From contig CAMJPC010000002.1 in NCBI GenBank assembly GCA_946407705.1, forward strand, positions 62,001-126,000: a stretch of DNA of 64,000 bases, read 5' to 3'. Numbering within the stretch: position 1 is the first letter of the stretch; each line of letters starts with the position of its first letter. The translations under genes and the position numbers were made by a program. This document shows positions 62,108-64,000 of the stretch, piece after piece. The notes below the pieces were generated by a model. It searched no databases. It had not been told where the DNA came from and worked only from the letters and a program-made list of their open reading frames with translations. Source of the DNA: an uncultured Clostridia bacterium (GTDB taxonomy: Bacteria > Bacillota > Clostridia > Saccharofermentanales > Saccharofermentanaceae).

Positions 62108-62136
62108 TTGACAATCCGGTTTTTCAAGTCTATCCT
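62108..62136 (+). promoter_or_regulatory. Sigma-A-type promoter
   Basis: TTGACA (62108-62113), 17-nt spacer, TATCCT (62131-62136). Confidence 0.72.
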
Positions 62137-62159
62137 TTAGGAACGTTCCCTCGGGAACT

Positions 62160-62448
62160 CACAACTGAATATTATCACAAAGGCTGTGACGAAGAGGTCT
62201 GCAGATCTATTGATCTTACAGAGAGCCGGGTTAGCTGAGAAACGGTGCTTCGATAACTGCAATAGACTATCACTTCCGAGCCGGCATTCCGAAAGGGTTT
62301 TCCCGAGTAGACAGTGCCCGTTATGCTGCGTTAATGTAAAGGAGTTGTTAGACTTCGAAAGTGGCAGCCGCAAGGCTTGCAAATTGAGTGGTACCGCGGA
62401 TTTTATTCGTCTCAATGTCCAGGAAGGATGTTGGGGCGCTTTTTTTTG
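62160..62448 (+). ncRNA. T-box leader (tRNA-sensing)
   Basis: Stem I-type motif ACAGAGAGCCGGGTTAGCTGAGA, T-box GAGTGGTACCGCGG (62386-62399), terminator CGTCTCAATGTCC-AGGA-AGGATGTTGGGGCG-CTTTTTTTT (62408-62447). Confidence 0.93.
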
Positions 62449-62492
62449 CCCCGACGAGGCACAAACAAGATTGACAGAAAAGGAGAAAACGT

Positions 62493-64000
62493 ATGTCAGA
62501 TCAGAACAGCAACGTAGAGTTAAGACTACAGGAAGTTGCAGACAGAGTTCACGGCCTTAGACTCGACATGGGTCTCACACCTGAAGAAGTTGCTTCCAAG
62601 CTTGATATTTCGACTGAAGAATATCTCAAGTTTGAAGAAGGAACCCAGGATTTCAACTTTACGTTCATTTACAAGTTCGCTAACCTCGCAGGCGTTGAGA
62701 TCTCAGACATCATGGAAGGATCTTCTCCTTCCCTCAAGGAATATGCCGTAACGAGAAACGGCCAAGGAAGCCCTATCACAAGACGTACGGGCTATAAGTA
62801 CCAGCGTCTTGCATCACGTTTCAAGAATAAGCTCTGCGAGCCTTTCCGTGTCGTAGTGCCTTATTCCGAGGAAGCTCTTAACCCTCCGTATCACCTCGTT
62901 TCACACAACTATCAGGAGATGAACATCGTCGTTAAGGGTACTCTCAAGGTAATCATCGGCGATTCCTCCGAGGTCCTTCACGAAGGCGACTCCATCTATT
63001 TCGACTCCACACAGCCTCACGGCGAGTTTGCATTGGGCGGCGAGGACTGCGTATTCTATGCGATCATCCTCAACCCTGAGGCATGGGGCAAGGGCGAGAA
63101 CTACACCACTCCTTACAACTCCGAAGAGCTCCGCACCGACAACGTTACCAACGTTGACGCTGCCAATCTTGAAGATCCGGTCTATGCTCATTATCTCAAC
63201 GGCATCCTTGATGAGAACGGCACGATGGTCGATGTCGACGTAAACGTTCCCGCATGCAAGAAGTTCAACTTCGCATTCGACTGCGTTGACGTCATAGCAG
63301 ACAAGAACCCCAACAAGCTCGCAATGCTCTGGGTCGCAAAAGACTGCGTAACCGAGAGGAGATTCACATTCGGAGACATCAAGAAGTATTCCAACATGAC
63401 AGCGAACTACTTCAAATCCTTGGGCATCGGCAAGGGCGACAAGGTCGTACTCGTACTCAAGAGACACTATCAGTTCTGGTTCGCCATGATGGGTCTCGAA
63501 AAGCTCGGTGCCATCGCGATCCCCGCTACCCACCTTCTCCGTGACCACGACTACGAGTACCGCTTCAACGCCGCAGGCGTTAAGGCTGTCTTCTGCACCG
63601 CTGACGACGATGCTGCTGACGAAGCCGAGAAGGCGGCAAAGGCATGCGGAGTTGAGACTCTCATCCTCTGCAACGGTTCAAGACCCGGATGGCACGACTT
63701 CAACGAAGAGTTTAAGAGTTTCTCTGATGTCTTCGAGCGTCCCGCCGATTATGCATGCGGCTACGATCCGATGGTCATGTTCTTCACATCAGGAACATCA
63801 GGCTATCCTAAGATGGCTCTGCACTCCTACATGTATGCGATCGGCCACATCCCTACAGCTAAGTACTGGCAGAACGTAGACCCTAACGGTCTCCACTTCT
63901 CCATCTCCGATACAGGCTGGGGTAAAGCTCTCTGGGGCAAGCTCTACGGTCAGTGGCTCTGCGAAGCTCCCGTCTTCACATTCGACTTTGACCGCTTCAA
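62493..64000 (+). CDS. XRE HTH - cupin - AMP-binding (acyl-CoA synthetase) fusion; 3' end outside window
   Basis: HTH LRLQEVADRVHGLRLDMGLTPEEVASKLDISTEEYLKFEEG; cupin MNIVVKGTLKVIIGDSSEVLHEGDSIYFDSTQPHGEF; AMP-binding MVMFFTSGTSGYPKMALHSY. ATG 62493 after AAAAGGAG; frame open to window end. Confidence 0.92.
   Translation, partial: MSDQNSNVELRLQEVADRVHGLRLDMGLTPEEVASKLDISTEEYLKFEEGTQDFNFTFIYKFANLAGVEISDIMEGSSPSLKEYAVTRNGQGSPITRRTGYKYQRLASRFKNKLCEPFRVVVPYSEEALNPPYHLVSHNYQEMNIVVKGTLKVIIGDSSEVLHEGDSIYFDSTQPHGEFALGGEDCVFYAIILNPEAWGKGENYTTPYNSEELRTDNVTNVDAANLEDPVYAHYLNGILDENGTMVDVDVNVPACKKFNFAFDCVDVIADKNPNKLAMLWVAKDCVTERRFTFGDIKKYSNMTANYFKSLGIGKGDKVVLVLKRHYQFWFAMMGLEKLGAIAIPATHLLRDHDYEYRFNAAGVKAVFCTADDDAADEAEKAAKACGVETLILCNGSRPGWHDFNEEFKSFSDVFERPADYACGYDPMVMFFTSGTSGYPKMALHSYMYAIGHIPTAKYWQNVDPNGLHFSISDTGWGKALWGKLYGQWLCEAPVFTFDFDRF

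Follow-up and report, generated by a model that had tools for sequence, protein, structure and literature searches.

Genes and regulatory features at the locus

The window, the whole 64,000-nucleotide stretch of DNA analysed here, comes from an uncultured Clostridia bacterium and ends inside a gene that encodes a helix-turn-helix (HTH)–cupin–acyl-CoA synthetase (ACS) fusion. As the preliminary description had set out, promoter (62108-62136), T-box leader (62177-62417), terminator hairpin (62408-62438) and fusion gene (62493 onward) are contiguous. The features are as follows:

62108-62136 (+), sigma-70-like promoter TTGACA-17-TATCCT, 10/12 in a consensus scan
62177-62417 (+), T-box leader from Stem I to the antiterminator, RF00230 match
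62269-62271 (+), specifier AUC (Ile), from the Rfam alignment column, five internal controls and its invariance in orthologues
62383-62416 (+), antiterminator, 62383-62388 pairing with 62411-62416, from model pairs and the fold of the isolated stretch
62389-62392 (+), UGGU in the T-box bulge, complementary to an ACCA 3′ end (discriminator A), read from the sequence
62408-62447 (+), intrinsic terminator, 13 pairs at 62408-62438 followed by 8 T, from hairpin analysis
62480-62485 (+), ribosome binding site AAGGAG, read from the sequence
62493-64000 in the window (+), HTH–cupin–ACS gene with ATG start, from Pfam HTH_3, Cupin_2 and AMP-binding; nearest structure 3ETC

A covariance-model scan matched the T-box family RF00230 to 62177-62417 (+) over all 219 model positions with 75.4 bits (E 1.8e-16), which is lower than the Rfam gathering score of 93 bits; a default scan misses the leader and an e-value scan detects it. 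Five other T-boxes were found in the genome, each upstream of an amino-acid gene, and four of these likewise score under 93 bits (66.1 to 92.9): leuA (127.6 bits), trpB-like (92.9), pheST (83.1), trpE (77.2) and aspS (66.1), where the identity of leuA was confirmed and the other four genes were named by eye from the sequence. The leader is conserved before orthologues in related species and in other gut Clostridia, and the UGGU core is present in all related leaders seen. Folding of isolated stretches gave no striking excess of stability over shuffled sequences (z-scores of 0.44 for Stem I, -1.64 for the terminator and -0.49 for the antiterminator), and the case for the T-box therefore rests on the covariance model and on conservation. 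The T-box leader in front of the ACS gene, proposed in the preliminary description, is confirmed as real. A AATTGAATA-like conserved stretch 5′ of Stem I was seen in only 37 of 121 leaders, with a mononucleotide-shuffle rate of 8%.

Bases 62411-62416 are common to the 5′ arm of the terminator and the 3′ arm of the antiterminator, so the two structures are mutually exclusive. A consensus scan found no second promoter-like site on the plus strand between the leader and the ACS gene, where a separate promoter would have spoken against control by the leader. The ACS gene comprises 781 codons and extends past the end of the window (C2:124493-126838 in the genome); because the next gene lies on the opposite strand, it appears to be transcribed alone.

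The preliminary description had pointed to the right specifier loop, GACUAUCAC, and had left it ambiguous between AUC (Ile) and UAU (Tyr). With the Stem I alignment to the T-box model that it had suggested, the specifier columns fall on AUC (62269-62271), with A as the next base, and the same columns fit all five control T-boxes of the genome, giving CUC for leuA, UUC for pheST, UGG for both trpB-like and trpE, and AAC for aspS. An AAC (Asn) specifier ahead of aspS is plausible if the enzyme is non-discriminating. Among orthologous Ile-type leaders AUC is constant and its flanking bases vary (for example, CCAUCA and UCAUCG), and Val-type leaders carry GUA at the equivalent position. The Tyr reading was rejected: the frame is set by the five controls, and the base 5′ of AUC varies in orthologues such that UAU is not kept. 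According to PMC7583486, a purine is usually conserved directly 3′ of the specifier; the focal leader has A there, but 36 of the 122 related leaders have C. For the helix adjoining the specifier, more than one paired version was seen (GAAG:CUUC, GGAG:CUCC and GAGG:CCUC), of which only the variety is informative because the caller demanded pairing.

UGGU at 62389-62392 bears out the expectation that the leader prefers a tRNA with discriminator A, the usual base in tRNA-Ile and tRNA-Val. A rough pattern search of the genome did not recover a tRNA-Ile(GAU) gene; such genes often lie inside rRNA operons, which draft assemblies lose, and this would account for the miss. Overall, the leader reads as a transcriptional T-box predicted to bind tRNA-Ile.

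The synthetase and its acyl-pocket residue

Pfam searches assign residues 22-72 of the protein to HTH_3, residues 137-191 to Cupin_2 and the remainder to the AMP-binding family; the N-terminal HTH–cupin part is probably a ligand-sensing regulator. The nearest solved structure of the ACS half is 3ETC (664 bits versus 351 for the next), which is MacsMa of Methanosarcina acetivorans. At the six positions reportedly listed for the MacsMa acyl pocket in a 2010 paper (W237, W254, K256, W259, C298 and G351), all six residues are identical here (numbering offset 23). W259 and a pocket glycine of MacsMa are named in PMC10455477, which gives 2-methylbutyrate as the preferred substrate of that enzyme. 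The best NCBIfam model is MbcS (NF047394), which acts selectively on 2-methylbutyrate and isobutyrate (PMC10026030); with 405 bits against a curated cut-off of 850, the protein is not filed as MbcS. Judging from these likenesses, the ACS is most likely an AMP-forming acyl-CoA synthetase that prefers 2-methylbutyrate.

Scanning GTDB genomes yielded 80 homologous loci from Clostridia of the rumen and gut, some of them under the names Saccharofermentans or Ruminococcus. The T-box lies directly upstream of the gene in 65 of them, with an AUC specifier in 47, GUA, GUC or GUG in 18, and a codon for no other amino acid. Several of the loci that have no upstream T-box are truncated by contig ends or represent the second gene of a tandem pair. 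In a tree of 90 ACS domains, the Val-codon enzymes all fall in one clade nested among Ile-codon enzymes, corresponding to one state change. Residue 477 is the only ACS-domain column that fully separates the two types, with Gly in 52/52 Ile-type and Ala in 21/21 Val-type enzymes, a split that is phylogenetically close to one event. A wider count, covering every ACS gene in the loci and including tandem partners and genus members absent from the discovery set, gave Gly with Ile in 81/81 and Ala with Val in 22/22. Residue 477 sits between the equivalents of MacsMa W254 and K256, where MacsMa has Gly; a larger side chain would be expected to go with the smaller acid, presumably through a steric effect.

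Ala is likewise found at 477 in the lone and split paralogues that do not belong to the fused family. Because the split paralogue of the focal genome (L047 8554-10260) has Ala, it is a predicted isobutyrate user. In such loci the HTH–cupin is a separate gene directly 5′ of the synthetase (L047 8554-10830 (-), L059 1621-3969 (-), L053 and L054); the fusion thus has a split counterpart, and the focal genome carries both forms. We found no T-box at the split paralogue in L047.

In a six-member Ruminococcus group (L077, L079 and L081-L084), the region 5′ of the ACS start contains no T-box core. In several of these loci the leader starts with GTAAGC soon after TATAAT, and the start region reads GGAG..GGCTTRC; the two could pair with each other, possibly as another kind of control in this clade.

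Genes of isoleucine synthesis in the genome and in related operons

The genome (2.67 Mb, draft, 97.5% complete) has an incomplete standard isoleucine pathway. IlvD and IlvC are absent from it, although the same searches found each of them in 14 of 14 control genomes. As the genome is a draft, this absence rests partly on losses in congeners, where IlvD is missing in 45 of 59 genomes and IlvC in 46 of 59. No CimA was found in the genome or in any of the 59 genomes of the genus. What remains of the standard pathway is ilvA and, as read by eye, ilvBN. The retention of ilvB and ilvN (G000 contig 11: L065 11388 to L047 1569) despite the missing ilvC and ilvD makes them either a relic or an acetolactate synthase with another role.

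The genome also encodes a three-subunit branched-chain 2-oxoacid:ferredoxin oxidoreductase (VOR; L045 7547-9998), whose VorB scores 543 bits against a cut-off of 399 and whose beta subunit scores under its cut-offs, and the branched-chain aminotransferase IlvE (362.9 bits, cut-off 250). VorB is present in 51 of the 59 genomes of the genus. The preliminary description had advised looking downstream for oxoacid:ferredoxin oxidoreductases. In relatives the vor genes are indeed found there; in the focal genome they lie on another contig, unlinked to the ACS gene.

Among the homologous loci, vorB falls within the flank of 24. The fullest operons (L100 and L104) consist of an Ile-T-box ACS, a Val-T-box ACS, a ParA/MinD-like ATPase, ferredoxin, vorB, vorA, vorC and ilvE, and the L137 operon has the same order minus the second ACS; IlvE of L137 and that of L119 score far over its cut-offs. 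The operon genes are the set needed to convert 2-methylbutyrate to isoleucine and isobutyrate to valine. The ParA/MinD-like P-loop ATPase between synthetases and vor genes (7306-7968 in L137) recurs in 24 other loci. CUC (Leu) T-boxes ahead of 2-isopropylmalate-synthase-like genes adjoin an Ile-T-box synthetase at L085 ~633 (+) and L142 ~4295 (-).

A second ACS, counted as either the Val-T-box type or the type with a separate HTH–cupin gene and with fragments scored as present, occurs in 39 of 45 genomes that have no IlvD versus 1 of 14 that have it (Fisher p 8e-8; p 6e-5 among genomes at least 90% complete), the p values ignoring the relatedness of the genomes. This distribution fits a second ACS that supplies the valine branch where IlvD has been lost.

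Proposed function and relation to known systems

We propose that the ACS very probably serves starvation-induced activation of 2-methylbutyrate under control of a tRNA-Ile T-box, for reductive carboxylation by VOR and conversion to isoleucine via IlvE. Under isoleucine shortage, the anticodon of uncharged tRNA-Ile would pair with the AUC of Stem I, and the ACCA at its 3′ end with UGGU; the bound tRNA would let the antiterminator form and the ACS gene be transcribed, whereas charged tRNA-Ile would allow the terminator to form. The ACS would then join environmental 2-methylbutyrate to CoA, with ATP converted to AMP. VOR would combine 2-methylbutyryl-CoA, CO2 and reduced ferredoxin into 2-oxo-3-methylvalerate, from which IlvE would make isoleucine. 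For the Val paralogue, the same role with isobutyrate is the best explanation. Both acids are established precursors in the rumen, 2-methylbutyrate of isoleucine and isobutyrate of valine (PMC7356843), and 2-methylbutyrate is converted to isoleucine in methanogens as well (PMC10658910). The argument is computational throughout. The sequences themselves show the T-box with its specifier and terminator, the family of the enzyme, a genome that has VOR and IlvE but neither IlvC nor IlvD, and the operon linkage in relatives; the substrate, the direction of flux, tRNA binding and the role of the HTH–cupin part are inferred. Counting against the proposal are the distance between the ACS and vor genes in the focal genome, its retained ilvA and ilvBN, and the C that follows the specifier in a minority of related leaders.

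The preliminary description had held that the enzyme acts on an acid derived from an amino acid, for example isoleucine or an aromatic one. The link to an amino acid, with isoleucine as a candidate, stands, and the direction is reversed: since shortage is what switches T-box genes on, and since making acyl-CoA with an AMP-forming synthetase consumes ATP, the acid would be a precursor of isoleucine rather than a product of its breakdown. It follows that the ACS would be an amino acid biosynthesis gene and so no unusual target of a T-box. An aromatic substrate does not agree with the AUC specifier, nor with the presence of a different gene for the aromatic ligase. That gene, which is phenylacetate-CoA ligase-like, lies in a cluster at L046 5975-10515 (+) together with iorAB (indolepyruvate:ferredoxin oxidoreductase), a small gene and an ACT-domain-like gene; for aromatic acids, the cluster forms a parallel set.

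VOR is reversible and is known in amino acid fermentation, and the operons could in principle run the other way, with VOR oxidising the 2-oxo acids of isoleucine and valine to acyl-CoA for energy and the ACS handling the acids. Such catabolism appears highly unlikely, as a gene induced under isoleucine shortage would be regulated in the wrong direction, AMP-forming activation consumes ATP, the T-box sits on the synthetase itself and IlvE lies within the operon in relatives. Somewhat less improbable, though still unlikely, is a main role in supplying the branched-chain acyl-CoA that primes membrane fatty acids, where isoleucine control would merely report a shortage of the usual source of anteiso primers. 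The similarity of the ACS to MbcS of Staphylococcus aureus, which passes 2-methylbutyryl-CoA and isobutyryl-CoA to FabH (PMC10026030), speaks for that role; VOR, ferredoxin and IlvE in the operons of relatives, the pairing of one synthetase under an Ile T-box with another under a Val T-box, which fits amino acid supply, and the missing IlvC and IlvD speak against it. Primer supply may be a side role of the enzyme. An extremely improbable alternative is a Tyr specifier or an aromatic acid as substrate, suggested by a UAU readable one base upstream and by the indolepyruvate oxidoreductase–paaK cluster in the genome, and opposed by the control-set frame, by the conservation of AUC but not UAU in orthologues, by GUA at the same place in Val-type leaders and by the separate aromatic ligase gene.

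The 2-methylbutyrate salvage proposed here resembles several known systems in part. With Ile-specifier transcriptional T-boxes (RF00230), the leader shares the Stem I specifier loop, the UGGN bulge, the choice between antiterminator and terminator, and a gene for amino acid supply, and differs in controlling an acyl-CoA synthetase. With MacsMa (3ETC), the protein shares the ACS domain over its whole length, the acyl-pocket residues and the Gly between the W254 and K256 equivalents; MacsMa has no HTH–cupin part (its chain of 580 residues is aligned from residue 52 onward), and the focal ACS is under bacterial T-box control. The protein's best NCBIfam model describes S. aureus MbcS, which acts on the same two branched acids (PMC10026030), but its score falls short of the cut-off given above, and MbcS serves membrane fatty acids. 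The rumen branched-chain-acid route has the same sequence of acid, acyl-CoA, 2-oxo acid and amino acid in the same habitat (PMC7356843; PMC10658910) and is known at the precursor level, whereas the present analysis assigns to it candidate genes, an operon and RNA control specific for the amino acid.

The RNA class, the enzyme class and the pathway are already known; in the literature searched we did not find the assignment of the gene, a control matched to Ile or Val, or the fusion. Neither that literature nor the main texts of T-box surveys, the TBDB paper and a review described an acyl-CoA synthetase gene under a T-box; the gene may still appear without comment in some published T-box list. 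It is known that microbes of the rumen build amino acids from branched-chain volatile fatty acids, and ruminants are given isoacids in their feed. For the first step of this use, the loci offer a defined set of genes that carry their own labels: the T-box codon identifies the amino acid that a synthetase serves, and one residue of the acyl-pocket motif predicts the acid that it takes. With codon and residue as labels, dependence on branched acids would be predictable from the genomes of uncultured gut Clostridia.

More tentatively, and with the balance somewhat against it, the fused protein could be a two-input regulatory enzyme, in which the T-box reports a shortage of isoleucine or valine and the HTH–cupin part senses the branched acid, or the acyl-CoA made from it, and controls either its own promoter or the VOR genes. 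On this view the family would form a salvage system built of modules, with codon and pocket re-specified together (Ile-Gly477, Val-Ala477).
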